A DNA stretch of 24,957 bases from IMG/VR virus record IMGVR_UViG_3300021440_000113, positions 1 to 24,957 of that record. One strand, given 5' to 3'. A program made the translations under genes and the position numbers. Positions 7,051 through 21,545 of the stretch are shown piece by piece; within the stretch, counting starts at the first letter, position 1, and each line of letters starts with the position of its first letter. The DNA comes from a virus. The notes beneath the pieces are model-generated. The model was not told the origin of the DNA, did no database searches, and saw only the letters and a program-made list of their open reading frames with translations.

Positions 7051-8742
7051 ATGGCTGTTTGGAATCAATGTTCTCCCCGAATTGTCTCCGTCACGGAAAG
7101 CTGCGGCTGCACCCTGACGCGGGCCTCTATCGCGGGAATTACCCCCGCAGAGTTCGAGGCGCTTGGCACGAAGGAGATTGATTATCACAATCTCATTTCC
7201 CAAGCGGCCGAAGCGAAGATGATCGGCGTGCAAGAGCGTCCCCTCCGGGACCTCCTGATGTCGAATGTCACTTCGATCAAGGGCGCTGTGGCTAAGGTGC
7301 CGGTGCAGAATCAGTCCGTGATTCTCCCGTACATCTATCGCCAGCAACGCGCGAACGTCAACTCGAACTACTTTAGCATCGAGGCTGGCGCTGCCACCAC
7401 GGGTGCGGGTACCGGCGGCATCCCCGCTCACGCGTGGGACATCACGGTTAACACCGGCCCCTCGCCGTTCAAGAGCCCGCTCTCGAACATCGAGAAGTAC
7501 TTCCTCCCGGGCCAGACGGTTTTCGTCCTGACCCTCACTGATCCGTCGGGCGCCAAGACTGCCCGTACACTTCAGTTTGACATCTACGCTGCGGTCAATG
7601 CGGATTCGGGCGGCGTCGCCAAGGCTAAGGTCACTGTGGTTCCGAACTACACTGCCTCCGGTTTTGCGGCCCTCACCAATCCTCAGAAGGCCGTCTATCA
7701 GCCGACCTTCGGTACCGTGCTCGTCGGCGCCAACAGCGTCAGCGACTACGAATCGTGGTGCCACAACGAAGCTTCGGATAATAGCCGCAAGCTTCTGACG
7801 TACTGGATTCAAACCAGCCGCGAGACTTCGTGCTATAACGACGAGTACCTGAAGGCCCTCGAAGCCTCGTACACGTCCGGATACTTCAAGAAGTTCCGTG
7901 AGCTTCCGCTCGCTGAGCAGAACCGCCAGCAACGTGCGCAGTTCGAGAAGAAATGGCTCAACTCGGTCTTCTACGGCCAGCGCATCAACGAGAACCAAAG
8001 CCCGAATACCTACACCAGCCTTCCGCAAGTTGTCGACCCGGTCGACGCGGGTTGCGTGTACGAGTATAAGGCCAACGCTCTCGGTGTTCGTACCCAACTT
8101 GGTGACTGCTCGCGCATCACCGACCTTGCCGGTGCGGCCCTGAATCTGGACTTCATCTTCGCGATGCTCTATGAGCTGAAGCGGAATCGTGAAGCGACCG
8201 GTGGCAGCATCGACACGATCGACCTTATGACGGACCGCCTCACCGCGGACCTCATTCGTCAGGTCATGAGCGGCTACTACAAGTCGAAGTACGGCGTCGA
8301 CACGATGCGGTACTACACCCCGGGCCAACAGCTCAAGTTCGAGAACCAAGTTCTCTTCAACTACGATCTGTACCAAGTTCCGGAAGTCGGCGTTCACCTC
8401 GCGGTGTTCCACGATCCGTACTTCAACGATCACCTCGCTGCGTTCACGACCGGCGCTGGTGGCTCGACCAACATCCAAAGCCGTGGCCGCAAGCTGTGGA
8501 TTCTGGACTGGTCGGACATCAAGATCGGTATCGCCGGTACGTCCTCGGTCAATCGTCATACTCCTGACGCCGAGACCAGCCCGCTGTACAGCTGCGTGAT
8601 CCAGCCGAACGTCAAGCACTACCAACTCCGCTCGACGAAGTGGACGGTCATCATCGAAGACCCGAATCGTCACGCGATTGTTGAGAACTTCAGCGGTGCG
8701 TGCCCGACTGTCTCCGACACCGGTTGCGCGTCGTACTCGTAA
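7051..8742 (+). CDS. Major capsid protein
   Basis: A 563-residue protein directly after the scaffold gene, the standard place for the main shell subunit. It has the mixed alpha/beta character of large HK97-type capsid proteins: an N-terminal helical arm, a beta-rich insertion (about residues 110-230, with Gly/Thr-rich stretches), then a long helix region (about 265-320) and a beta-rich end. It contains ten Cys, including Cys7, Cys18 and Cys20 near the start and two near the C-terminus, which is many for a capsid protein. The gene is bracketed by terminators, as suits a highly expressed monocistronic message, and its codons are strongly biased to C/G endings, unlike the fibre genes. The fold family is inferred; position makes the role likely. 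Confidence 0.85.
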   Translation: MAVWNQCSPRIVSVTESCGCTLTRASIAGITPAEFEALGTKEIDYHNLISQAAEAKMIGVQERPLRDLLMSNVTSIKGAVAKVPVQNQSVILPYIYRQQRANVNSNYFSIEAGAATTGAGTGGIPAHAWDITVNTGPSPFKSPLSNIEKYFLPGQTVFVLTLTDPSGAKTARTLQFDIYAAVNADSGGVAKAKVTVVPNYTASGFAALTNPQKAVYQPTFGTVLVGANSVSDYESWCHNEASDNSRKLLTYWIQTSRETSCYNDEYLKALEASYTSGYFKKFRELPLAEQNRQQRAQFEKKWLNSVFYGQRINENQSPNTYTSLPQVVDPVDAGCVYEYKANALGVRTQLGDCSRITDLAGAALNLDFIFAMLYELKRNREATGGSIDTIDLMTDRLTADLIRQVMSGYYKSKYGVDTMRYYTPGQQLKFENQVLFNYDLYQVPEVGVHLAVFHDPYFNDHLAAFTTGAGGSTNIQSRGRKLWILDWSDIKIGIAGTSSVNRHTPDAETSPLYSCVIQPNVKHYQLRSTKWTVIIEDPNRHAIVENFSGACPTVSDTGCASYS

Positions 8743-8816: not shown

Positions 8817-8891
8817 AGCAGGATAGAGTAACGGTAACTCAAGACTCTCATAAGGTCTGGCTTCGGGTTCGATTCCCGATCCTGCTTCCAA
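8817..8891 (+). tRNA. tRNA with CAT anticodon (elongator Met, or Ile2 if lysidine-modified)
   Basis: A full cloverleaf can be drawn. The acceptor AGCAGGA/TCCTGCT is followed by T and an encoded CCA. The D stem is GAGT/ACTC with GG in the loop. The anticodon stem is AGACT/GGTCT with loop CTCATAA, and the T arm is TCGGG-TTCGATT-CCCGA. The A1-T72 pair argues against an initiator tRNA. CAT could also be tRNA-Ile2 after lysidine modification; sequence alone does not settle this. Confidence 0.93.
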
Positions 8892-8908
8892 TTTCTGTTC
8901 TTTCTACG

Positions 8909-8995
8909 GGTAGTTACTCAAGCGGCCAACGAGGGTTGACTGTAAATCAACCGAGCGTCAGCTCTTCGGTGGTTCAAATCCATCACTGCCCACCA
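8909..8995 (+). tRNA. tRNA-Tyr (GTA)
   Basis: The acceptor GGGTAGT/ACTGCCC carries one G-T pair, discriminator A and encoded CCA. The anticodon arm is GTTGA-CTGTAAA-TCAAC, giving GTA. A long variable arm follows, as expected for bacterial class II tRNA-Tyr. The T arm is GGTGG-TTCAAAT-CCATC. Length is 87 bases. Confidence 0.96.
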
Positions 8996-9005
8996 TTTGT
9001 CAGAA

Positions 9006-9130
9006 GCGTGCAAGCTCACGCCCGAGGTATCGCCGCTCGCTGTGTCGTCCAAACTTATTAAACAAAGCCCGATCACAACAAGCGCAGCGATACACGGTCA
9101 GGCCCATCCCGGAGTCGCGCCCGGGCTGAC
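9006..9130 (+). ncRNA. Unidentified non-coding stretch with strong predicted stems inside the tRNA cluster
   Basis: No cloverleaf or credible gene fits here, but consecutive helices do. Stem 1 is GCGTG/CACGC (9006-9010, 9017-9021). Stem 2 is GTATCGC (9027-9033) with GCGATAC (9087-9093), continuing inward as CGCT (9034-9037) with AGCG (9081-9084) past a 2-base CA bulge, and further as TGTG (9041-9044) with CACA (9074-9077). Stem 3 is GTCAG (9097-9101) with CTGAC (9126-9130), and after a 6-base bulge CCCGG (9108-9112) with CCGGG (9121-9125) closing an 8-base loop. Such dense pairing suggests a structured RNA. It may be a free-standing ncRNA, a processing element or part of a larger RNA continuing past tRNA-Thr. 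I do not recognise the family. Confidence 0.5.
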
Positions 9131-9137
9131 ATCAATT

Positions 9138-9213
9138 CAGGAGGTCGCCCAGAGGGATGGGCTACGGGTCGCGCCCGAATACACCGAGGTTTATCTCTCG
9201 GTCCTCCTGTCCA
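9138..9213 (+). tRNA. Aberrant tRNA or tRNA-like element (possible CGC anticodon)
   Basis: A 76-base element with a perfect acceptor CAGGAGG/CCTCCTG, then T and encoded CCA. A D-like arm GCCC-AGAGGGAT-GGGC follows the acceptor. The T position carries an unusual ACCGAG/CTCGGT stem with an 8-base loop (GTTTATCT) instead of the normal 5-bp stem and TTCRANN loop. The anticodon hairpin folds best as CGGG-TCGCG-CCCG; forcing a 7-base loop gives CGC (Ala) with an A-A mismatch in the stem. The G3-T70 pair needed by AlaRS is absent. It could be a decayed tRNA, a tRNA mimic or part of the neighbouring structured RNA. Overall length and ends are convincing; identity is not. Confidence 0.45.
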
Positions 9214-9218
9214 TTTAA

Positions 9219-9294
9219 GCTGCTGTAGCTCAGTTGGAAGAGCGGCTGTTTTGTAAACAGCTGGTCGTAGGTTCAACCCCTACCAGTAGCTCCA
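9219..9294 (+). tRNA. tRNA-Thr (TGT)
   Basis: The acceptor is GCTGCTG/CAGTAGC with discriminator T and encoded CCA. The D arm is GCTC-AGTTGGAA-GAGC. The anticodon arm is GCTGT-TTTGTAA-ACAGC, giving TGT. The T arm is GTAGG-TTCAACC-CCTAC. It is a canonical 76-base tRNA starting 5 bases after the tRNA-like element. Confidence 0.96.
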
Positions 9295-9302
9295 ATTCGG
9301 TT

Positions 9303-9455
9303 GCTAGTACGACCCGTGAAAACTAGCTATACCCGATCCGAGTTTTAGATTCGGCGGTCGCTCAGTGAGCGCCCGAGCCCAAGAAAGCATCGGGACTATT
9401 TAAGGAACCGGGACGACACTAAACCAAGTTGATGGGCGAGTTAACGCGCCGTCGT
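9303..9455 (+). ncRNA. Second hairpin-rich non-coding stretch between tRNA-Thr and tRNA-Gln
   Basis: The 194 bases between these tRNAs contain no credible gene or cloverleaf. Successive helices can be drawn: GCTAG/CTAGC (9303-9307, 9323-9327); CCGAG/TTCGG with a 7-base loop (9338-9342, 9350-9354); CGCTC/GAGCG with a 3-base loop (9359-9363, 9367-9371); CCCGA/TCGGG (9372-9376, 9390-9394); ACGAC/GTCGT (9413-9417, 9451-9455) enclosing GGCG/CGCC (9435-9438, 9447-9450). Individual stems are short, so chance pairing is possible. The cluster, beside the element at 9006-9130, suggests a folded RNA. From 9456 to 9488 I see nothing specific. Confidence 0.35.
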
Positions 9456-9488
9456 AAACATACTTGATCGAGCCCGATTCTTTACTTC

Positions 9489-9565
9489 TGCGGGATCGTC
9501 TAACTTTGGTAGGACAGCGGACTTTGAATCCGTGAATGGTTGTTCGACCCAACCTCCCGCAGCCA
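9489..9565 (+). tRNA. tRNA-Gln (TTG)
   Basis: The acceptor is TGCGGGA/TCCCGCA with discriminator G and encoded CCA. The D stem is GTCT/GGAC with a 10-base loop. The anticodon arm is GCGGA-CTTTGAA-TCCGT, giving TTG. The T arm is GGTTG-TTCGACC-CAACC. A T-A first pair is usual for tRNA-Gln. Confidence 0.95.
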
Positions 9566-9566
9566 A

Positions 9567-9643
9567 GCGCTCATGGTGTTTAACAGTTAGCACGCGAGTT
9601 TTCCACACTTGTCGTGAGGGTGCAACTCCCTCTGAGCGCTCCA
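9567..9643 (+). tRNA. tRNA-Gly (TCC)
   Basis: The acceptor is GCGCTCA/TGAGCGC with discriminator T and encoded CCA. The D stem is GTGT/GCAC. The anticodon arm is CGAGT-TTTCCAC-ACTTG, giving TCC. The T stem is GAGGG/CCCTC. The T loop is TGCAACT, with G in place of the near-universal T55. Only one base separates it from tRNA-Gln, so the pair is cotranscribed and processed together. Confidence 0.93.
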
Positions 9644-9750: not shown

Positions 9751-10215
9751 ATGAAACGCTTCTTTCTGGCGGACAACGCGATTCGATCCATCAAGTTCGG
9801 TGACTTCGTTACCGTCTTCGACGTGATCGACCAGATTGGCGGCGCGTGGTACGGAGTGTATGCGACGGACGACGAAGCTCTCCTCGCGGCCATCGAAAAA
9901 GATGGTCCTCGTCTCGGGGTCAGTGAGATCACCGAGGACGAGTACAACGCGCAGCTTAAAAAAAAAGTAAACTCTTCGAGCAATACTTTTCGCTCGGAGG
10001 TCCTGAGAATCCCCTTGCCGTCCCAAAACCAAAGAAATGTGGTAGTTGCGGGAAAAGCGTCGGGGGCAGTCTTGTCAACAAAGGGTACTTCTGAACCCCT
10101 CCCCTCGGTAGCGGATAGGCCTACGGTGGAAGCGGTCGTCACCGTTGGAGAAGCAGATTACATCGAGCCGCTTGACATTGCCAAGCCTGTCTCCAAGAAA
10201 GCCAAGCGCAAATGA
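9751..10215 (+). CDS. Virion-region protein of unknown function (154 aa), with predicted -1 frameshift site
   Basis: I do not recognise this protein. Residues 1-72 form a compact-looking alpha/beta domain (FGDFVTVFDVIDQIGGAWYG, then TDDEALLAAIEKDG and SEITEDEYNAQLKKK). Residues 73-115 are Ser/Gln/Arg/Val-rich, low in order and use otherwise rare AGA and AGG codons. The end (VSKKAKRK) is basic. Its TGA (10213-10215) overlaps the next gene's ATG as ATGA, which supports the in-frame C-terminus as real. The stretch that looks poorly coded is exactly where the -1 frame looks well coded (see 9958-10000 and 9966-10094). The place between capsid and connector-like genes suggests a head accessory or head-tail joining part, but this is inference. 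Confidence 0.75.
   Translation: MKRFFLADNAIRSIKFGDFVTVFDVIDQIGGAWYGVYATDDEALLAAIEKDGPRLGVSEITEDEYNAQLKKKVNSSSNTFRSEVLRIPLPSQNQRNVVVAGKASGAVLSTKGTSEPLPSVADRPTVEAVVTVGEADYIEPLDIAKPVSKKAKRK
9958..10000 (+). promoter_or_regulatory. Predicted -1 programmed ribosomal frameshift signal
   Basis: In-frame codons AAA AAA AAA form a run of nine A (9958-9966), containing the slippery pattern A-AAA-AAA. After a 6-base spacer (GTAAAC, 9967-9972) a 9-bp stem-loop can form: T9973-C9981 with G9992-G10000, core CTTCGAGC/GCTCGGAG with two G-T pairs in the full stem and a 10-base loop. Slippery run, spacer of 5-9 bases and downstream stem is the standard -1 frameshift layout, as in bacterial dnaX. Transcriptional slippage on the A run could give the same product. 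Not tested. Confidence 0.6.
9966..10094 (+). CDS. -1 frame extension giving an alternative 114-aa product with a CxxC motif
   Basis: If ribosomes slip back one base on the A run, residues 1-72 of the upstream gene are joined to 42 new residues ending at TGA 10092-10094. The new tail reads SKLFEQYFSLGGPENPLAVP followed by KPKKCGSCGKSVGG and a short end. It has a CxxC knuckle flanked by Lys and Gly, as in half of a zinc ribbon. Codon choice in this frame over 9967-10091 looks more like neighbouring genes than the zero frame does. The alternative explanation is a one-base error in the homopolymer, which would make this the only true product. The ATGA overlap at the end of the zero frame argues that both ends are used. 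Confidence 0.45.
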   Translation, partial: SKLFEQYFSLGGPENPLAVPKPKKCGSCGKSVGGSLVNKGYF

Positions 10216-11342
10216 CCTATCTCGAATTCAAGCAGGAGGTTCGAAAGCTCCTCTCCGACGTAACCCCGGACGAATCCCTCGCGGCTTCGTGCGTAGCTGA
10301 TTACGTTAAGGCCAAGATTGTCCGTGAAGTTGACAAGGACCTGACCCTTTCGTCCTCGTACTGGTCCAGCTTTCTCAGCCTGAAGCGCCGCCTAGCTGGA
10401 TTCGACGTACTCACTCTTCCGGAAACCTTCGAGCAGGACGTCAAAGACCTCCTGACCGTGGATGCCAATCGCCGTGGCATCGAGACTTTCATCTCGCGGC
10501 AGATCATCAACGGTCGAACGGAGATCGAGAGCCTGAACACCGCTGCCGAGAAGTGGATGCGACAGGCGGTCATCGACTTACAGTCCCACATCCCGGGCTA
10601 TCGGATTGGCCAGCAAAGCTGCTATTGGTCTACGGATGGTAGCCGCTTCGGCCAGTGCCTCCGAGCCCGCCTGCCCGACGGGGCTGCGTTGAAGGATATC
10701 TATTACGTTCGTGCTGTGCCAGACCTTGAGGAAGGCGTGGCCTATTCGGCGAATGAGTACGTGCTGTCCAATAATCGAATCTATAAGGTCGTGGTTGGCG
10801 GTACCCTGCTTCCGGGCGAACTTGGAGACGGACTCCAAACGGATACTTGTTCTGATCCAGCACTTTGCGCCACTTGCCCTTCGGTCATTGCGCCAGAAAC
10901 ACTGGGTAGCCTGAGCTTCAACTACGCCGGGGAAGAGATTGCTGCCCGGTCCAAGGTTCAGGTTATTTCGTGGACCCGTCGCAACGAGATCGCCTCGGCT
11001 CCTAATAAGAGTTGTGGTACCGATCCACTGATCAACATCAACGCTCCGGCCACCGTGGCCATTGACCCCGAGTCCTACTCGGCCTACTTCTGGCCCCACC
11101 CGGACGGGAATCATTACTTCCTCGTGACGTGGAACGGGATCAACTTTGACTTTGAAGACGGCGATGAAATCCCGTTGGACGAGGGGGCGCAAGCTGCCGT
11201 TGCTGAGTACGTCCGAGCCCACCTAGACCGGGAATCCGACGACCGCCAGCGCAGCAGAGAATTTCTTACCGCTTACATTGGGCTACGCGCTCGCCTGTTC
11301 GTGGACTTCAAAGAACGTAAGAGTGTTAAGTTTAACCGATGA
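10212..11342 (+). CDS. Probable head-tail connector or virion structural protein (376 aa)
   Basis: The start ATG overlaps the previous stop and the stop TGA overlaps the next ATG at 11339, so three genes are coupled. The N-terminal ~110 residues and the last ~60 are helical. They look alike: one has AASCVADYVKAKIVREVDKD then SFLSLKRRL, the other AAVAEYVRAHLDRESDDRQR then IGLRARL, which suggests an internal repeat. Between them lies a beta-rich region with seven Cys in the whole protein, including the cluster CSDPALCATCP (about residues 215-225). Helical bundles joined by a beta insertion occur in adaptor or gatekeeper proteins of the neck, and the position downstream of capsid fits. No family-specific motif was found, so the role is inferred from context. 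Confidence 0.65.
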   Translation: MTYLEFKQEVRKLLSDVTPDESLAASCVADYVKAKIVREVDKDLTLSSSYWSSFLSLKRRLAGFDVLTLPETFEQDVKDLLTVDANRRGIETFISRQIINGRTEIESLNTAAEKWMRQAVIDLQSHIPGYRIGQQSCYWSTDGSRFGQCLRARLPDGAALKDIYYVRAVPDLEEGVAYSANEYVLSNNRIYKVVVGGTLLPGELGDGLQTDTCSDPALCATCPSVIAPETLGSLSFNYAGEEIAARSKVQVISWTRRNEIASAPNKSCGTDPLININAPATVAIDPESYSAYFWPHPDGNHYFLVTWNGINFDFEDGDEIPLDEGAQAAVAEYVRAHLDRESDDRQRSREFLTAYIGLRARLFVDFKERKSVKFNR

Positions 11343-11909: not shown

Positions 11910-14900
11910 ATGAGCAACAATTACAAGGATTTCTCCGAGTCGGCCTTAGCCTCCGGCATCACTTCTGGAGCCACGTCTCTTTCGGTCACTACGGGGCACG
12001 GCATTAAGTTCCCTTCGCCGCCGTTTAAGGCTGTAATCTGGAACAAGACGGACTATGCCCGCCCGTCACTCGATCCTTCGGTCGAGAAAATCCTTGTCAC
12101 TTCCCGCACCGGCGACGTCTTTAGCTCGATCACTCGCGGAATCGACGGCTCGTCGGCTGCGGCTCATAACGCTACCGGAAAGATTTACGGTATCCTCCAT
12201 ACGATCCTTTCCGCTGATCTTCAGGATGCCCTAGCCACGCGCACGTTTAGCGGGGCCGGGGTCCCCGGAGTCGGAGTTGGTACCAACGGTGATTTCTACA
12301 TCAACGAGACCAACGGAGATCACTACAAGAAGAACGGTGGCGCTTGGTCTCTGATCGGAAACATTCGTGGTCCGGCAGGTCCGGCCGGAGCTGGATATTA
12401 CGCCACAGCTTCGGATACTTTTGCGATGCCTCCCCTCGGCGGAAGCGTCTCGGTTACCACTCAAACGGGGCTAGCATACACGGTTGGTTCCCGAGTCCGT
12501 TTTGCAGACAGCACCTATCCGGAACTCTATTTCTTCGAAGGCACTGTAAACACTTACGTTTCCGGAACCGGAGTTCTGGGATTGGAAGTTGACTTGGTTA
12601 GTGATTCGGGTCCCGCGCTTCGGGGGCCGTGGACTATCAATCTAGCCGGGGCTCAGGGTTCGGGGTATCGTACAGTTAGTAACACCAACACCATCGTCTC
12701 TACGGGAACGAAGGTCTTCTCGGTTTTTCGCGGACTCGCTTATCTTCCGGGAGCGCGCGTTCGGGTGTCTCGTTCTAGTACCCCTTCTACCTACCTCGAA
12801 GGCGTTGTTACTGATTACACGGGTGGAACCCTGACAGTCGATGTCGATGTTGTTTCTGGTAGCGGAGTATACGGTTCTTGGAACATCAATGTTGCCGGTG
12901 AGCCGGGTACTGGAACCGGCGGCAGCGGAGCGATCAAGGTTGATTCGATCAACGACCTTGAGATTTTGAACGTTGCTGGTATCGACGATTTTTCTATCGT
13001 CGAGGTTCTTGGATACTGGGAGCCGGGAGATGGGGGTGGCGGAAGTTTCTTCTATAACTCTTCTGATACCCGGCCAGCAAACGGTGTTACTATCTATTCT
13101 GCCACCGGTGGTGGCGGTCGCTGGACCCGTCGAATGGATGGGGATATCCTTAACGTTAAGTGGGCCGGGGCCATCGGAGATAACGTAACCAACCCGATCG
13201 GCTCTACTAGAGCTGCAAAGTTTAACTCGTACGCGTCGGCCAACGGATGGTACGCGTCGATGTTCACCGGTACTGACGAGAATGACTATGCTGCCATTCA
13301 GCTAGTCTCTTGGCTAGCTGGGATCAACCGGTACACTGCCACGGACGGTGGTCGTAATCAATGCCGAGTATACATTCCGGTCGGTCGATACATGATCAAT
13401 CGAGAAATCTGGGCTACTCCGCAGGACGCATCCGGAGTCTCGATTCAGCAGTTCAGCGCTCCGTATTTCCAAGGAGACGGTTGGAACGGTACAATTCTTC
13501 GGGCCACGTCTGCCATGTTCAACAAGGCGATGTTTCGCCTAGACGGACATTATCAGACGCACTTCAAAGACATTCAGCTTGAGGGCCCCGGGCGAGTTAA
13601 TTACCACGCGGTTCAAAACAGCCTCGGTCATACACCCTTCGAAACGTTGGAGGTGTCTGACGCGTACAACGCTCAGAACACAGTCGGTATTAACCATCCC
13701 TCCGGTAATAGCGGACTCCAACTCGAAAACGTAACTGTTCAATCGTTCTTCGTCGGACTCGACCTCGGTCGTCCTCAGCTAAACTTTAATGGAAGTTTTG
13801 TTACGTGGGGCGGGAATGGGGACGATGTCGCATTTGACCACACCCTAATTATTGGATGCCATATTGGTGTCCGCGGTCGTGAGCCGAACGTCCTTATCAC
13901 ATCCGCCAAGGACAGTGCTATCTGGGGCCACACGATTGCTGGTTTCTACAGCCAGAGTTCTCCGTCGGTCAATACGACCATGTCGTGGAACCTGAGTAAT
14001 TTTTACTTCGGGACCTCGATTCAGCCCAGCGTACAGCAGACCGGCGTAGTTACCGGGGTTTCTGGAAATAATATAACGGTATCTCTAAATGACCGTACCG
14101 TAAACACTTACCTCGGTATTACGGGTAGTGCTCGAAAGATGCAGCCTGTGTTTGACATGGACTGCATCATCGAGGGAAACGGGTCGTATGGCCTTTCGGG
14201 AGGAAGTTTCCAGACTCCGTTTTCTACCCCGCTAACAAAGGTTCTAACGGGTACGACCATCTCTGGAGGTAGCACGACCATCACGGTACAGGATTTCAAT
14301 ACTGTAACGGTTGGTGCGAAAGTCGTCTTCGGATGGTTTGGAGCCGGTCTTCGATACACCCGGTTCAATGCGAGCATGTGCCGGTGGGAAGCGAATCCTC
14401 AAAGTTTCTTCGAGGCTAATTCACCCGATATCGCAATTGCGGCTATCTGCAGCGGTAACGCGGAACACCTCGTTTCCAACGGGCAGATTACGCATAACAT
14501 GCAGCCTGTTCGCGGTACCTTTACCTCGGATAATTGGTGGTTGAAAAACATCCCCGTATGGGTTCTCCCCTCCGGCGGCAGCTGGCAGGCCTCGCTGACG
14601 TCTACGGAGACGCTATATCAATGTGTAACTCCGATCATTCAGGCCAACGGTGGAAGTCAGATTTGGTTTAAGTCAAACAACGATCGCTACTTTGCCGATC
14701 CGCTTATTCGATCTGGATACGGCGGCCCTACCGGGGGGTTTCATACTTCTTGCGTAATCGAAAACTCTACGGTTAATAACGTGTTCGGGTTCCGCTTGGA
14801 CGAGTTCGGACAATCTATTCCGGGTCAGGTGCTTCGGCGTCCATATCGAGTTTCGTATTCCGATCTAGGTCCGACATGGGAACAGCCAGTCTTTAGTCAC

Positions 14901-16160
14901 AATACACCGACAGCGGTGTACGGTGGCGGAATCTGGATTCCCGGATATTTTGGAGGAGCCACCGACTACCTGCGGCAGAATAATCCGATGGACGGAAACT
15001 GGGCGCGCATCGAAGGCGCTCTGTATATGTCGGGTACTACGATCCCGTTTACCGCTGCCGGAAACTCGGGCAGTAATAAGATTCGGTTTACCTTTGATAA
15101 TACAACGAACGGTGGAGAGCTTGGGTTTACGCTTTATTCAGCCCTTAAAATTGCTGGGGCTGGAAGCGGCGGGTCCGACCTCTACGCTGTTGTCATTGCG
15201 CTCGAAATCATCAGCAAGACCGGATCAAATTTCGTGGTCGACGCGTGGCTCGGTCGTAATCTTGGAACCACGGTCACCGGAGCAGCCATCACGCATGTCG
15301 CTCCCAACTGGGGGTACCGTCAATTCAACGGACAGTATACGATTTCTGGTGGCGCTCCGACTTTTAATGCAGAGTTCGTCGGGCAAGAAGCGATGGATGT
15401 TTGGACGAGTCCATATACACCGTACAAGGCGGTCAAAGTTGGTACGGGGGCCGGAGATTGGCAGAGAGTCGGTAGCAGCACTACCCCGCTACTTAATGAC
15501 AGTGGGTCCGGAGTCAGCCTAGTAGCCACACCCTCTACTAGCCAAGTAAAGAAACTACTCGCAGGTACCAACGTGTCTATCACCGACGCGGGGGATCATC
15601 TAACACTCGCTTCTACGGGGGGAGATTTTACCGGGGCAAGCTCGAATTCGGAAGACGGAAACGTTGTAAAGTTCAGCGGAACTACCGGAAAGATCGGTAA
15701 GGACACCGGTGTTGCAAAGATTCAGTCCGTGGCGGCGGGTGGAGTTCGTCAGGCTGCGCTGATTAACAGCGAGGACGCCAATAAGTACATGTTACTTGGC
15801 GCAGTCACGGGGGATAATCCTGCTATTTGGGCGCGCGGAGCTGCCTCTAGTCCATCGGATAGCAACTACGCTATCCAACTGGGAAGCGCGGACGTTTTTG
15901 TTAACGCCTCCTCCTCGGTTAACTTGCGTGTCGGAAACGATACCATGCTTCGTGTGGTCAACGGTTCCGTTAATACTCCAACGAATAAGAACTTCTCCGT
16001 GGGTGGCGATGGCAGCTTCGGGGGCGGGGCCGGGGTGTTCTTCTTGACTGCGGCTGGTACCGTTCCAACTTCGAATCCTACCGGTGGAGTAATTCTCTGG
16101 TGGGACGGAACAAACTTGAAAGCCCGCAAGCCCGACGGTAGCGTAGTTACGATCTTCTAA
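11910..16160 (+). CDS. Very large tail fibre/tailspike protein (1416 aa)
   Basis: A receptor-contacting fibre. Residues 1-110 form a virion-attachment-like head (SALASGITSGATSLSVTTGH, later DVFSSITRGIDGSSAAAHNA). A NGDFYINETNGDHYKKNG strand leads to a short collagen-like GPAGPAGAG (154-162). Two tandem beta domains follow (about 162-247 and 253-330). A long right-handed beta-helix-like region (about 410-900) includes YIPVGRYMINREIWA and many short Gly/Asn-rich turns, as in tailspikes that bind or cut surface glycans. A beta-rich part and a terminal fibre module end the protein, finishing WWDGTNLKARKPDGSVVTIF, an ending common in phage fibres. I cannot locate catalytic residues. The next gene starts two bases after the stop. 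Fibre assignment is firm; enzymatic activity is not shown. Confidence 0.9.
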   Translation: MSNNYKDFSESALASGITSGATSLSVTTGHGIKFPSPPFKAVIWNKTDYARPSLDPSVEKILVTSRTGDVFSSITRGIDGSSAAAHNATGKIYGILHTILSADLQDALATRTFSGAGVPGVGVGTNGDFYINETNGDHYKKNGGAWSLIGNIRGPAGPAGAGYYATASDTFAMPPLGGSVSVTTQTGLAYTVGSRVRFADSTYPELYFFEGTVNTYVSGTGVLGLEVDLVSDSGPALRGPWTINLAGAQGSGYRTVSNTNTIVSTGTKVFSVFRGLAYLPGARVRVSRSSTPSTYLEGVVTDYTGGTLTVDVDVVSGSGVYGSWNINVAGEPGTGTGGSGAIKVDSINDLEILNVAGIDDFSIVEVLGYWEPGDGGGGSFFYNSSDTRPANGVTIYSATGGGGRWTRRMDGDILNVKWAGAIGDNVTNPIGSTRAAKFNSYASANGWYASMFTGTDENDYAAIQLVSWLAGINRYTATDGGRNQCRVYIPVGRYMINREIWATPQDASGVSIQQFSAPYFQGDGWNGTILRATSAMFNKAMFRLDGHYQTHFKDIQLEGPGRVNYHAVQNSLGHTPFETLEVSDAYNAQNTVGINHPSGNSGLQLENVTVQSFFVGLDLGRPQLNFNGSFVTWGGNGDDVAFDHTLIIGCHIGVRGREPNVLITSAKDSAIWGHTIAGFYSQSSPSVNTTMSWNLSNFYFGTSIQPSVQQTGVVTGVSGNNITVSLNDRTVNTYLGITGSARKMQPVFDMDCIIEGNGSYGLSGGSFQTPFSTPLTKVLTGTTISGGSTTITVQDFNTVTVGAKVVFGWFGAGLRYTRFNASMCRWEANPQSFFEANSPDIAIAAICSGNAEHLVSNGQITHNMQPVRGTFTSDNWWLKNIPVWVLPSGGSWQASLTSTETLYQCVTPIIQANGGSQIWFKSNNDRYFADPLIRSGYGGPTGGFHTSCVIENSTVNNVFGFRLDEFGQSIPGQVLRRPYRVSYSDLGPTWEQPVFSHNTPTAVYGGGIWIPGYFGGATDYLRQNNPMDGNWARIEGALYMSGTTIPFTAAGNSGSNKIRFTFDNTTNGGELGFTLYSALKIAGAGSGGSDLYAVVIALEIISKTGSNFVVDAWLGRNLGTTVTGAAITHVAPNWGYRQFNGQYTISGGAPTFNAEFVGQEAMDVWTSPYTPYKAVKVGTGAGDWQRVGSSTTPLLNDSGSGVSLVATPSTSQVKKLLAGTNVSITDAGDHLTLASTGGDFTGASSNSEDGNVVKFSGTTGKIGKDTGVAKIQSVAAGGVRQAALINSEDANKYMLLGAVTGDNPAIWARGAASSPSDSNYAIQLGSADVFVNASSSVNLRVGNDTMLRVVNGSVNTPTNKNFSVGGDGSFGGGAGVFFLTAAGTVPTSNPTGGVILWWDGTNLKARKPDGSVVTIF
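12393..12899 (+). repeat. Tandem repeat of a ~80-residue beta domain in the large fibre
   Basis: Two adjacent segments of the 1416-aa fibre match. Unit 1 (nt about 12393-12650) has YTVGSRVRFADS, then FFEGTVNTY, LEVDLVSDSG and GPWTINLAG. Unit 2 (nt about 12666-12899) has YLPGARVRVSRS, YLEGVVTDY, VDVDVVSGSG and YGSWNINVAG. The similarity is at protein level and DNA identity looks modest, so the duplication is old. Each ends in a flexible Gly-rich linker. Confidence 0.8.
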
Positions 16161-16162
16161 TC

Positions 16163-18052
16163 ATGGCCAACGAAACACTTCTTCGTCGTAACGATTCTAC
16201 CGGGGCTATTGCTCCGACCGGTGACGTCTCTATCACCGGGCGCGTATACACCTCGGAAACGATCAACGCCATGAACGGCTTCGGCCTCGTGGCCGACGGC
16301 GTTACTGAAAACTTCGTGGCCTTTGGAGACTTCTGGCGATCGGTTCAGCCGAGCGGAGGAATCACGTCTATCATTGTCGCGGCTCCGGGAACAGGCTACG
16401 ATGGTAACGGTGGGGGAGCCGGAGCTTTTGGTGCTTTGGACATCACTTTCTCGGGCGGCTCCGGAGCGGGGGCTGCGGGCAAGGCGGTCATTAGCGATAA
16501 CGGACGCGTCGCGTTTGCCACGATTACTAATCCGGGTTCCGGGTATAAGATCGTGGCCCGCGAAGTAGGAGCCACGGGAATCGTCAGCGGGTCCCCGGTT
16601 ATCACAATCAACGCGGGAACTACAACTGACATCTCAGCCGGGATGTCCGTTACCTCGGATTATTTTTCAGCTGGTACTACGGTTCTTAGTAAGACCTCTA
16701 ACACGGTCACGGTTAGTACCAACGCTACAGGGAGCGCTGGGTATCAGTGGGTTAGCTTCGGTATACCGCAGCTGTCGTTTAGCGGTGGCGGTAGCGGAGC
16801 AGTTCTCAAAGCCGTGGTTGGAACTCGTAAACACATCGTGATTCCTCCGGGTAACTACGTCTGCGCGGGTACCTACATTCACTGTCTGCACAACGCGTAT
16901 GTCGAAGCGACGGGAGTTACTCTTATTCAGACAAGCAAGACCAGCAACGGACTTTATCTCGGACCCGAGTGTTGCGAAGTCGTTATCGACGGATTACGGG
17001 ATCAAAACTACGACACCACCTCCGTGGACCCTACGGCTCGCGGTACTGGAATTGGTTTCAAGCTTTCCGGGTACAACGTCGAACTTCATAACACGGGTAC
17101 CCGAAATATCCCGAACTGGGGAGTTGTGATTCAAGGTGAAGGAGCAACGTACAACCGGGGGCTCAAGGTCATCAACCACTCGCACTTCGGCTCCGGTGGA
17201 GACGGTATCCACGTAGCCGACAAAGTTGATGGGGTCCACATCGTAAGCCCGAATATTTATGATGCCGGGGATGATGGTATCGCCGTATACGGGACGGATG
17301 ATTCTAGCTTCCCTCCGCTCAATATTTCGGTAGACAACTTTACCATCGTCAACAACGGCTGGCGTGGACTCATGGTTGGGGCTAACGCGAGCCGAGTCAG
17401 CTTTGGCAACGGAGTAATTCGTGGCTGCGGTAACTACGCAATCGAGTGCTTTCCGGGTGACGGCCCGGGCTCTACTGGTCCAAGCGACATCACATTTGGA
17501 AACATTGTAATCTCTGGCGTTGGTCGTTCGGCGGACGGATACCGTGCCACTTATAGTAATCGCTACCCGATCAAGATTAACAAATGCACTCGGGTTTACG
17601 GAGGTGTGTTTACCTTTTCGGATATCCAAGAGACGACGCTGGTTAATATCGTTGACTCCACGGACATTCATTTCGAACTTGGACAAATCGGCTCTAAGAC
17701 TGCAATGGTCACGAGCGGATCGAACTCCAACTGCTCGGTTAACTTCTTGAAAGGAAGCAAGCAAACAGTAATGACTGGTACCGCGGCTATCGGCCTGCTT
17801 GTGGACGGCCTCGCGGAAGGCGGCCAGATGAAGGTCGAACCTAGCGGCGGCCTTCAGTTCGAAGTTGGGACTAGCTTCAAGGATATCGAGTTTTTTGAGG
17901 GTAGCGTGGGTAACAGTATCTTGAAGCTCAATTACAACGGAGTCCTTCAGTACGGAGTCGCCGCTTCTACAGCCTCTTCGGTTCCGTCCACGCATAAGAT
18001 CGCGGTCAAAGACAATACTGGTACAGTTTACTACCTACTGGCCACGACCTAA
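16163..18052 (+). CDS. Tailspike with right-handed beta-helix, GH28/pectate-lyase-like (629 aa)
   Basis: A probable receptor-binding and possibly glycan-cleaving spike. The N-terminus includes NGFGLVADGVTENFVAFGDF, a variant of the GDGVTDD..A pattern that opens phage pectate-lyase-like helices. Residues about 73-220 insert a Gly-rich module with repeated VAAPGTGY and TNPGSGYK motifs. IPPGNYVCAGTYIH then leads into the main beta helix (about 230-500). DAGDDGIAVYG (about residues 366-376) resembles the GDD-type acidic motif of glycoside hydrolase family 28, which suggests but does not prove catalysis. The end, VPSTHKIAVKDNTGTVYYLL, is a common terminal module of capsule-targeting spikes. It begins two bases after the previous stop. 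Substrate cannot be told from sequence. Confidence 0.88.
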   Translation: MANETLLRRNDSTGAIAPTGDVSITGRVYTSETINAMNGFGLVADGVTENFVAFGDFWRSVQPSGGITSIIVAAPGTGYDGNGGGAGAFGALDITFSGGSGAGAAGKAVISDNGRVAFATITNPGSGYKIVAREVGATGIVSGSPVITINAGTTTDISAGMSVTSDYFSAGTTVLSKTSNTVTVSTNATGSAGYQWVSFGIPQLSFSGGGSGAVLKAVVGTRKHIVIPPGNYVCAGTYIHCLHNAYVEATGVTLIQTSKTSNGLYLGPECCEVVIDGLRDQNYDTTSVDPTARGTGIGFKLSGYNVELHNTGTRNIPNWGVVIQGEGATYNRGLKVINHSHFGSGGDGIHVADKVDGVHIVSPNIYDAGDDGIAVYGTDDSSFPPLNISVDNFTIVNNGWRGLMVGANASRVSFGNGVIRGCGNYAIECFPGDGPGSTGPSDITFGNIVISGVGRSADGYRATYSNRYPIKINKCTRVYGGVFTFSDIQETTLVNIVDSTDIHFELGQIGSKTAMVTSGSNSNCSVNFLKGSKQTVMTGTAAIGLLVDGLAEGGQMKVEPSGGLQFEVGTSFKDIEFFEGSVGNSILKLNYNGVLQYGVAASTASSVPSTHKIAVKDNTGTVYYLLATT

Positions 18053-18060
18053 CGCAGTCA

Positions 18061-18549
18061 ATGCTTCTCGCCGACCTTCCTCTGGGTGACGCGCCTACGG
18101 GCGATCTGGCTCCTACGCTTACGCTTCCGACAAGCTTGGTGTTAGTCTGGGACGTTCGCGCTCCGCTGGATAAATCACTGCGGGTACTATGGTCTACGAA
18201 GAAAGCCAAGCAGGTTCGGACCTGCGAGGATAGCTGTCCTCCGCCTCCGGTATCGGCTTGTGACCTTGAGGACTTGGTCGAAATGTCCGGAAACCGTTGC
18301 CGTACCCGGGGCTTCTGGAACGTTAAGATCGAAGCGGTGTCCCGCTGCTCCAGCGATAGTTCACTGGACGTTCATGTCGTGGTCCCGGCTGGCTCTTGCT
18401 GGTCGGATATCTCGCAGGACAACGCCAACGCTACGGCCCGGCAAGACGCCTTGAATCAAATTGCGGCCTACCGAGCCGCCAACCCCTGCCCAGATTCGGA
18501 TATGGTTGACTTCCTACCCGAAGACTTCTCTGATACTGATTTCTCCTGA
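18061..18549 (+). CDS. Cysteine-rich protein of unknown function (162 aa)
   Basis: Not recognised. It lies between two tailspike genes with gaps of only 8 bases on each side, so it belongs to the same transcript and is probably a virion part. The N-terminal ~50 residues are hydrophobic and Pro/Leu-rich. Seven Cys follow, including CEDSCPPPPVSAC, then RCSSD, GSCWSD and NPCPDSD. There is no clear signal peptide. A short helix (QDNANATARQDALNQIAAYR) precedes an acidic end. Even Cys spacing without His argues for disulfides rather than a zinc site. A fibre adaptor or spike-attachment protein is possible, from context only. Confidence 0.65.
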   Translation: MLLADLPLGDAPTGDLAPTLTLPTSLVLVWDVRAPLDKSLRVLWSTKKAKQVRTCEDSCPPPPVSACDLEDLVEMSGNRCRTRGFWNVKIEAVSRCSSDSSLDVHVVVPAGSCWSDISQDNANATARQDALNQIAAYRAANPCPDSDMVDFLPEDFSDTDFS

Positions 18550-18557
18550 CCCAACAC

Positions 18558-21545
18558 ATGAGCGCCAAGACTAGAGCCGAACTTCTTTCCGACATCTCCT
18601 CGACTCTTGAGTCAGGGGCACGCAACACTGCCGCCGAAGTCCGGACGGTGCTCAACGATGTGGTGGACAGTGCCACTATCCCTCTGACCGACGGCGCTCC
18701 TAGCGCCGTATGGGGTGGAGTCACCGGAACGCTGAGCGATCAGGCCGATTTGAATTCGGCGTTGGTATCCTTGGATACCCGGCTAGATCGAAAAGAATTC
18801 GATGTTAAAGACTTTGGAGCGATTGGTGACGGGGTAGCCAATGATACTTCGGCGGTTCAAGCTGGGATCGCTCAGGCTCAGTCGAGCAATGGGAAACTCT
18901 TGATCCCGGCCGGAACATTTTTGGTAGACGAACTGGTTGTGTCCGGAGGCAGATTCTCGATCCGAGGTTCTGGCGTGGGCAGAACGATTATTAAAAGTCG
19001 CTCAGGCCAGAGCATCATAAAGCTCGGTGGCACGATTGATAATCTCAGCTTGTCTGGGATCACCTTTGAAGGCCATGCCACCATTGGAACGGGACACGGT
19101 GTTTATACTGATCCGGCTATCGACTGGTTCTTTAATAGTACCATCGAAGATTGCGAATTCGTTTCACTAAAGGGGCACGGGCTTTACCTAAAATCAGAGG
19201 GGGCGTTTTCGTTCCGGGTACAAAACTGCATGGCCACGCTGTGTGGTTTGGATGGGTTCCGTTGCTTCGGCGGCCCCGGAGTATTGTTCGATTCATGCAC
19301 GGTGAAGACCGTTTCTACGGGGCGGGCCGGATTCCGAGTTCTTACCTACGCACAGTTTATCAACTGCAATGGAATTTGGGACGGGCTAGGAGTCTGGGGC
19401 CGATTCGGAGGGGTTTCTGCTTCTTCCGAGAGTGACCTGACCGAGGCCTACCCGACCGTCGGGTTCTTGAATTGCAACTTTGAGAACTGCGCGGATACTA
19501 CTCTAGACTTTATCAACGGAGTAAACGGTACGTCCTTTAGTCAGTGCTATTTCCTGCCGCGGGCTGGGATTACAAATCAGCGAGCGATCCGCGTATACGG
19601 AGGGCGTACGAACGCTGCGGGGCTTACTTTCTCTGGAACGGAATTTCGAAAAGACCCGACCTCTTCTTGGGACCACGGAGTACCCGTGTACTCTGACTTC
19701 GGTATCTGGGCTTCCAGCAACGATGGGCAGGGTCCGTCTATCTATAACGGCAACGCAGGCCTAGTGTACGCGCCGTTCGCGATGACTCTTGATGGGGTGG
19801 ATAACGCTAAGACCTACGGCATGACCCCGCACACAGTCGGTCCGGTATGCCTTAAAAATCTTCTCGGAGCCAAGGTCGGTAACGATGTTGGTGACCAATC
19901 CAGTAACTGGACTTACCGCGGTGGGATGCCGACCAGCGGTACTTTTACAGCCGGGGATAAAGTGTGGGCTACTGGGGCGCAGCCAGAGCAGGGATTCAAC
20001 GTTAGCAAGTATGTTTTGATCGGCTGGCACCGACTCACAACCGGAAGCAATCACGTCCTTGGGACCGATTGGGTCGAGATGCGAATGGGGTCCTCCGCCC
20101 TCAAGGATGACGGACGACTCGACGTAAAAGCCTTTGGAGCTGTCGGCGACGGGGTGGCTAACGATACGGGTCCGATCGCAGCAGCGTTTTCCCTCTCTGC
20201 GTCCACTAAGAAGTCCGTCTGGTTCCCCTACGGCTCGTACCTAACGGACAAGATCGTTACCAATTCGGATACCGTCCTCGTATACGGAGAGCGTTCCCGA
20301 ATCACAAGCCGGCTCGGTGATACTGTGATGGAGATCGGAGGTACCGACGTTACCCGGCTCCATATTTCTGGACTCTCGTTTGTCGGAACTTCCAGTGGAA
20401 GCGGTGACGGTTTAGCTACCTCCGCCACGCTCAACTCGCTGTACAATGGGCGCATCGAGAACTGCGAGTTCGTCTATAATGGCCGCCACGGATTGAATTT
20501 CAAGTGCCCGGGTGCTTTTGGCTTTGTAGTTTCGGATTGCGTGGCCGACCAGAATCTCGGCGATCAATTCCGGCTGAGCGGAGGCCCCGGAGTGGAACTT
20601 GACGGCTGCTTGTGCGGAACTGTACCGACAGGAAAGGCTGGGTATCGAATCTTGGGGGACGCTACCCTCAACAACTGCAACGGTTTGACAGGTGGTAACG
20701 GAGTTTGGGGTCGCTTTGGCGGAGATGGAACCAGCGAAAGCGACAGCCGCACTGTATATCCGCTGATCTCGATGAACAACTGCAACGTCGAGGACTACTA
20801 CCAGATCGGTTTAGAGTGGGTGCAACAGGCACGTATCACGAAGATTTCTCAGTGCACGTTCTTGTGTCGCAACGCGTCGACCGGAGTTAAGCCAATCCGA
20901 TTTCTGCTGGGTGCGTACGACGACACCAGCCCGATCTGCGTTGATACTCTACGATTCGATCTGGGTTCGGGCGCTAGCTACTCGGTCTCCGGTCAGACTA
21001 TTTATAATGAGTCGGCCGGAATGCGGCTATTCTCTACGTCCCCGAACATCACGAGCTATCGAGATAACGGGGCGGGGCTTAACTATCCAGCAATCGGTCC
21101 TACGCTAGACTGGAATGGTAATATCTCTGCGTATGGGTTTCCGCACGTTGGGTACAATGTTCCCTACCTAGCAAATCTTATTGCCATGAAGACTGGCAAT
21201 GCGATTAACGATGGAAACAATAGCACCTTCTTCTTCCAGCGCGCTCGCCCGACGACGGGTACGTGGGCTGCCGGAGACATCGTTGTTCGCACTGGAGATA
21301 CTCAAGAAGACCCGAGTGGATTCGGAAAGACTACGCTCTTTGGCTGGCGTCGCCTAACCGCAGGAAGTGGTAATACACTCGGTACGGACTGGGTTGAGAT
21401 GCGCTTCTACTCGCAGTTCAATAACACTGTTCCTACATTTGCTGGGGATACTGGAACGGCTGGAGCGCTTGCATGGGACGCGAACTATATGTATGTTTGC
21501 GTTGCCACGAACACGTGGAAACGTGTCGCAATCGCTACTTGGTAA
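18558..21545 (+). CDS. Tailspike with two tandem pectate-lyase-like beta-helix domains (995 aa)
   Basis: Residues 1-75 are a helical N-terminus (KTRAELLSDISSTLESGARN) typical of fibre attachment. Two complete beta-helix modules follow. The first opens at about residue 83 with VKDFGAIGDGVANDTSAVQA; the second opens at about 523 with VKAFGAVGDGVANDTGPIAA. Both are the classic opening of the Pectate_lyase_3 family. Both contain IE(D/N)CEFV, then GGPGV, WGRFGG and a CN-rich turn, and both close with a GTDWVEMR segment. Most phage spikes have one such helix per chain, so a double helix is unusual. Catalytic acidic residues cannot be placed confidently, so enzyme or binding-only roles both remain possible. 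The next gene starts 3 bases after the stop. Confidence 0.9.
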   Translation: MSAKTRAELLSDISSTLESGARNTAAEVRTVLNDVVDSATIPLTDGAPSAVWGGVTGTLSDQADLNSALVSLDTRLDRKEFDVKDFGAIGDGVANDTSAVQAGIAQAQSSNGKLLIPAGTFLVDELVVSGGRFSIRGSGVGRTIIKSRSGQSIIKLGGTIDNLSLSGITFEGHATIGTGHGVYTDPAIDWFFNSTIEDCEFVSLKGHGLYLKSEGAFSFRVQNCMATLCGLDGFRCFGGPGVLFDSCTVKTVSTGRAGFRVLTYAQFINCNGIWDGLGVWGRFGGVSASSESDLTEAYPTVGFLNCNFENCADTTLDFINGVNGTSFSQCYFLPRAGITNQRAIRVYGGRTNAAGLTFSGTEFRKDPTSSWDHGVPVYSDFGIWASSNDGQGPSIYNGNAGLVYAPFAMTLDGVDNAKTYGMTPHTVGPVCLKNLLGAKVGNDVGDQSSNWTYRGGMPTSGTFTAGDKVWATGAQPEQGFNVSKYVLIGWHRLTTGSNHVLGTDWVEMRMGSSALKDDGRLDVKAFGAVGDGVANDTGPIAAAFSLSASTKKSVWFPYGSYLTDKIVTNSDTVLVYGERSRITSRLGDTVMEIGGTDVTRLHISGLSFVGTSSGSGDGLATSATLNSLYNGRIENCEFVYNGRHGLNFKCPGAFGFVVSDCVADQNLGDQFRLSGGPGVELDGCLCGTVPTGKAGYRILGDATLNNCNGLTGGNGVWGRFGGDGTSESDSRTVYPLISMNNCNVEDYYQIGLEWVQQARITKISQCTFLCRNASTGVKPIRFLLGAYDDTSPICVDTLRFDLGSGASYSVSGQTIYNESAGMRLFSTSPNITSYRDNGAGLNYPAIGPTLDWNGNISAYGFPHVGYNVPYLANLIAMKTGNAINDGNNSTFFFQRARPTTGTWAAGDIVVRTGDTQEDPSGFGKTTLFGWRRLTAGSGNTLGTDWVEMRFYSQFNNTVPTFAGDTGTAGALAWDANYMYVCVATNTWKRVAIATW
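18804..21404 (+). repeat. Gene-internal tandem duplication of a ~1.28-kb beta-helix module
   Basis: Unit 1 (18804-20084) and unit 2 (20124-21404) begin with near-identical GDGVANDT coding sequence and end with the same GTDWVEMR block, exactly 1320 bases apart at both ends. Inside, the offset drifts (for example 1311 at the IE(D/N)CEFV block), so small insertions and deletions balance out. Conservation is highest at the two ends and lower in the middle, as expected if the helix surfaces diverged. Confidence 0.85.

Follow-up and report, generated by a model that had tools for sequence, protein, structure and literature searches.

A conserved run of nine adenines in a head-module gene of uncultured phages probably gives one small protein two alternative tails

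In phage lambda, a −1 frameshift in a morphogenesis gene yields gpG and gpGT, a common protein with alternative C-termini (Xu et al. 2004, cited in PMC7230728). A −1 shift also gives phage T7 an alternative C-terminus in its head region, in this case in the capsid protein itself (10A/10B); we know of no conserved A9 run or cysteine pair there. Homopolymers offer another route to a second frame. Baranov et al. 2005 (PMC1088944) regard a 9A run as very likely to serve purposeful transcriptional slippage when homologues keep its length, and in Thermus dnaX nine A's slip efficiently (PMC1088944; review PMC5009743). The locus described here carries such a run within a small gene of a phage head module, followed by a −1 frame that ends in a pair of cysteines.

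The window, that is, the whole stretch of DNA analysed, is a linear IMG/VR virus record of 24,957 bases. Its late module contains, in this order, a terminase gene with a LAGLIDADG insertion, a portal gene, a scaffold-like gene, the inferred capsid gene, five tRNA genes (Met, Tyr, Thr, Gln and Gly; 8817–9643), the small gene and an SU10-adaptor-like gene (Table 1). In the terminase large subunit ORF (50–2398) the LAGLIDADG homing-endonuclease domains precede the ATPase part, an arrangement like that of an intein or an inserted homing endonuclease. Three large ORFs of 1416, 629 and 995 aa (11910–21545) appear tailspike-like by eye, with sequence of the beta-helix type, and an ORF at the contig end (24362–24916) matches the C-terminal domain of citrate synthase (PF00285, E 2e-7), which is unexpected for a phage late module. 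The capsid protein found no match in PHROG or Pfam; its relatives, from IMG/VR and GTDB contigs, share 25–54% identity, and two of its cysteines (residues 237 and 515) are conserved in 43 of 45 members. In one relative (L007, 7745–9268), the gene after the A-run gene ends in a calcineurin-like phosphoesterase domain (PF00149, E 3e-16), an apparent fusion with the inferred adaptor within that lineage; a similar C-terminal domain was recognized by eye in another (L005, 7655–9238).

Table 1. Features of the small gene and its neighbours (window coordinates)
Feature	Position	Strand	Remarks
Inferred major capsid protein gene	7051–8742	+	Role inferred from position
Small gene ORF	9751–10215	+	154 aa
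Shared N-terminal domain, residues 1–69	9751–9957	+	Directly followed by the run; common to both predicted products
Run of nine A, candidate slippage site	9958–9966	+	In frame as AAA AAA AAA; A9 or A10 in 91/91 homologues
−1 frame tail and stop	9960–10094	+	TGA 10092–10094; read if the run gains one A or the frame shifts by −1
Zero-frame tail and stop	9967–10215	+	Disordered, cysteine-free, basic end (KKAKRK), ATGA shared with the following gene
Predicted stem-loop after the run	9971–10001	+	8 bp at 9974–9981/9992–9999, 2 more pairs past a bulge; window-specific
Cysteine pair CGSC, −1 frame	10038–10049	+	TGT 10038–10040, TGC 10047–10049
Next gene, SU10-adaptor-like head-tail connector	10212–11342	+	PF24175, E 2e-5, 25.5 bits, just below the cut-off of 27

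A first-pass annotation of the window had described an in-frame run of nine A, a −1 frame open to the TGA at 10092 with a CGSCGK motif, and a zero-frame end joined to the next gene by ATGA. All three are present in the DNA. Up to its stop, the −1 frame of the window translates as KKSKLFEQYFSLGGPENPLAVPKPKKCGSCGKSVGGSLVNKGYF, and one extra A in the run would give KKK-SKLFEQYFSLGGPENPLAVPKPKKCGSCGKSVGGSLVNKGYF with the same stop; the ATGA (10212–10215) is shared by the zero-frame end and the ATG of the next gene, and an overlap of this type with the next ORF start is seen in 27 of the 91 homologues collected below. The 9-bp stem after a 6-base spacer that had also been claimed is close to the structure predicted here (Table 1), which has a spacer of 4–7 nt and an MFE of −12.1 kcal/mol (z −2.25; −3.9 over 30 nt). 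Codon usage, scored against that of the window, is −0.04 for the zero frame and −0.06 for the −1 frame in the overlap, with 0.30 for the N-terminal domain and 0.18–0.28 for other genes; the low and nearly equal scores of the two frames are as would be expected for a compromised dual-coding stretch.

Direct searches with the small protein yielded no relatives in IMG/VR or INPHARED, the sequences being too diverged, and the capsid protein was therefore used as a handle. Its search gave 57 IMG/VR and 5 GTDB loci, a first set in which nearly all contigs long enough for the small gene had a single long A run there. A wider capsid alignment matched 270 IMG/VR stretches, 80 of which were taken; in these, a profile of the N-terminal domain served to find the gene irrespective of the run, and all 75 profile matches contained a run of 9 or 10 A. 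The final set comprises 91 non-redundant homologues, the window included, from contigs of many independent metagenomes, and the small proteins are 14–30% identical to the window copy (42 aligned members). It includes L025 and also L139, which was not picked up by the profile and fits the same pattern; L021, L051, L068, L151, L112, L004 and L083 are left out, the small gene of the last two being cut off by the contig end. No relative was found among the cultured phages of INPHARED with eight query proteins (the small protein and seven capsid/connector proteins) or with the N-domain consensus. One match to a fusion of the N-terminal domain with the −1 tail, a ribonucleotide reductase (L002), was discarded as chance similarity over EITEDEYN.

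The run is nine A long in 84 of the 91 homologues and ten in the other 7, and it occurs in all three codon phases: phase 0 (codon position 1) in 39, phase 1 (position 3) in 45 and phase 2 (position 2) in 7. The A10 runs of this set are confined to one codon phase, where the frame arrangement is kept. AAA makes up only 28% of the lysine codons in the capsid genes, and only three other runs of nine or more A were found, on either strand, in 452 kb of loci of this type. Without exception the −1 frame is open, for 28–64 codons, and its tail holds exactly two cysteines (CxxC in 77, CC in 9 and CxC in 5) placed 0–16 residues before the stop; the zero-frame tails are cysteine-free in 90/91. When the zero frames were redrawn synonymously, 17.3 open −1 frames were expected against the 91 observed, and two-cysteine tails were expected in 1.5 (an earlier redraw test on 40 loci gave 1.4–3.3). 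Conservation of the A run and of the −1 cysteine frame, which the first-pass annotation had suggested as a check, is thus complete within the set, and since the homologues keep both, chance is excluded as the origin of the arrangement.

Members outside the set, or with a different gene order, are informative as well. Three relatives (L021, L025 and L051) carry additional genes behind the capsid gene, and their displaced small gene keeps A9 and the cysteine-pair −1 tail; the pair is CGFC in L025, and CC in L149 and L150, which also have insertions there. L112 has A9, but near the contig end its sequence no longer follows that of its relatives. In L151 the run and the −1 cysteine frame have been lost jointly, which means that the cysteine-tailed isoform would be dispensable in at least one lineage.

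Divergence at the three zero-frame codon positions was measured in 21 independent close pairs. The values for positions 1, 2 and 3 are 0.17, 0.10 and 0.43 in the N-terminal domain, 0.14, 0.19 and 0.26 in the overlap, and 0.19, 0.13 and 0.41 in the part used by the zero frame only. The zero-frame wobble is therefore suppressed in the overlap relative to the downstream part (Fisher p 5e-9) and to the upstream domain; the first-pass annotation had suggested a check for such suppression of synonymous variation. Position 2, where the −1 frame has its wobble, diverges more than position 1 does (p 6e-4 versus the zero-only part). Together, these two shifts indicate that both frames are constrained. 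On this comparison of homologues, the run, the −1 frame and the cysteine pair are conserved, and both frames are under selection as judged from their substitution patterns.

AlphaFold2, run on the zero-frame alignment of 42 homologues, predicts residues 1–70 with a pLDDT of 94–98 and residues 71–154 with about 54–70 and no structure. As the frame switch sits at the domain end, the products would share one domain and differ in the tail that follows it. In the zero frame this tail is 54–121 residues long and often has a basic end (39% K+R in the last 12 residues). In two relatives (L013, 7422–8006; L025, 8562–9125) the zero-frame tail runs on into a C-terminal segment that is similar in the two (about LAEFTGESEDKLKDLAKEEG and LADTLGISLPKLRDLAKQEG, respectively), resembles a helix-turn-helix and has no Pfam match. 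The N-terminal domain itself has no match in Pfam or, by sequence and fold, in the PDB; PHROG gave a weak match for only 1 of 42 members, and there was one borderline match among viral folds (A0A516MLW0, E 1.8e-3). The position of the gene suggests that the protein is a head or head-tail component. The −1 motif had been read as zinc-knuckle-like, and with exactly two cysteines per −1 tail, a single chain does not hold the full set of cysteine ligands of a zinc knuckle or zinc ribbon, so that the motif is not supported as a complete knuckle. A metal site might instead be shared between chains: the fixed occurrence of the predicted pair suggests such a site, or else a disulfide or another link with a partner, for which cysteines 237 and 515 of the capsid protein are possible candidates. 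Loss of translational coupling in the shifted product could possibly regulate the downstream adaptor gene, although this would leave the cysteine pair unexplained.

Taken as a whole, the account that we consider probable is that of a small two-tailed protein made by transcriptional slippage on the A9 run. Transcripts with nine A would be translated into a folded domain of ~70 residues with a long disordered tail and a basic end. The RNA polymerase would slip on the run and leave one extra A in a fraction of the transcripts, which would be translated into the −1 frame to give the same domain followed by a linker of ~25–60 residues ending in the cysteine pair. Slippage would thereby fix the ratio of the two isoforms for the phage, and the cysteine-tailed one would most likely be present in small amounts as a structural or assembly component, its pair binding either a metal ion or a cysteine of a partner. 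We infer the polymerase rather than the ribosome as the slipping machine, and likewise the isoform ratio and the role of the pair. Of the hallmarks of purposeful transcriptional slippage (Baranov et al.), which would also include heterogeneous transcripts with extra A's, two are found: the run is one of nine A/T with conserved length (84/91 A9 and 7/91 A10, in three codon phases), and the shifted frame has a conserved product, with the cysteine-pair tail in 91/91 and a dual-coding pattern. The +1 frame, which is also within reach of slippage, stops early, after a median of 9 codons versus 17 expected (p 0.008). A search for a T7-type RNA polymerase gave no match, but its control failed as well, so that this negative carries no information.

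The same two products would be obtained by a programmed −1 ribosomal frameshift on A_AAA_AAA or A_AAA_AAG, aided by the stem in the window. Such a shift needs an in-frame heptamer, usually together with a stimulator. This explanation can draw on an in-frame heptamer in every member, on an AAG after the run in many phase-1 members, which creates the efficient A_AAA_AAG type, on the short distance between the run and the stem of the window, and on Shine–Dalgarno (SD)-like motifs upstream of the run in 32/75 members. Such motifs are, however, absent in 43/75, and the stem, strong in the window, does not recur: across 75 diverged members the mean z downstream of the run is −0.13 to −0.29, and neither downstream nor upstream is there a family-wide conserved stem. 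The length of the run also exceeds what the ribosome would need, since an in-frame A_AAA_AAA takes nine A in phase 0 and seven or eight in the other phases; the run is longer than that in 52/91, and none has 7 or 8 A. That the run length itself is kept therefore fits polymerase slippage, which requires it, and the combination of A9 in three phases with no family-wide stem makes transcriptional slippage the better explanation of the conserved element. It is clearly preferred over ribosomal frameshifting, which we regard as unlikely. Of the frame switch proposed by the first-pass annotation, the conserved switch at the A run, the selected −1 frame, the CxxC-tailed isoform and the use of the zero frame are supported; a stem-stimulated ribosomal −1 shift as the general mechanism is not.

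The tract might also vary at the DNA level, replication slippage altering its length so that virions differ in the encoded tail. Homopolymers are typical contingency tracts, and L068 (run at 7938) has A10 with the cysteine tail in the assembled zero frame, the only such member; nine A would restore the usual arrangement there, and its tenth A could be a natural, DNA-level variant or an assembly error. A contingency tract should nevertheless vary in length and frame, and in the 91 homologues (L068 lies outside this set) the frame arrangement is always the same, A9 predominates and A10 leaves the arrangement intact, which makes phase variation very improbable. Fainter still is the case for a chance overlap or a sequencing artefact with a functionless −1 frame, a reading already refuted by the comparative data, namely by the excess of two-cysteine tails over expectation, the dual-coding substitution pattern and the origin of the contigs from many independent metagenomes.

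The predicted cysteine-tailed isoform will escape gene callers in every member. A more specific proposal, which we put forward tentatively and hold to be somewhat less probable than its negation, is that throughout this lineage of uncultured phages a slipping polymerase yields, from a gene of the head module, a minor isoform that is linked through its two cysteines, by metal or covalently, at a unique site of the particle, e.g., the portal vertex; errors of transcription would then determine how much of a virion part is made. Whatever its function, so constant a tail is an unusually tight constraint and makes direct tests possible. For other families, the A9 pattern in three phases provides a simple computational discriminator between transcriptional slippage and ribosomal frameshifting. 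In the literature searched, most subscription papers being outside reach, no earlier account was found of a phage head-module gene that is recoded at a conserved homopolymer and has two selected tails; the first-pass annotation, too, had known of no frameshift described between capsid and connector.

In gene order, the closest likeness is to the Gordonclarkvirinae podoviruses (phiEco32, SU10), which share the succession of terminase, portal, scaffold, capsid, small gene and next structural gene; their genomes of ~77 kb are as large as those of the longest relatives here, and the weak SU10_adaptor match points in the same direction. Their small gene is annotated as an Ig-like protein, in contrast, and tblastn showed no relation of that gene or of their capsid protein to the present family. 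The lambda gpG/gpGT pair differs in that it relies on a ribosomal heptamer, lies in the tail module and carries the long T extension, and it is not known to have a homopolymer conserved across phases or a cysteine tail; the gene described here lies between the inferred capsid and adaptor genes, not between the tail tube and tape-measure genes where tail-assembly chaperones are found. Thermus thermophilus dnaX (tau/gamma) is alike in its nine A in the coding strand and its two products with a common N-terminal part in a set ratio (PMC1088944), whereas its shifted frames stop near the run and here a phage gene has a conserved cysteine-pair tail. In bacterial IS elements and in Shigella spa13/mxiE, homopolymer slippage likewise opens a second frame with a functional C-terminal extension (PMC1088944, PMC5009743); those are other genes, and in the present family the shorter product is the shifted one, and both tails are conserved. 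Alternative C-termini made by slippage are thus already known, and what is new here is the location and the distinctive conserved tail.
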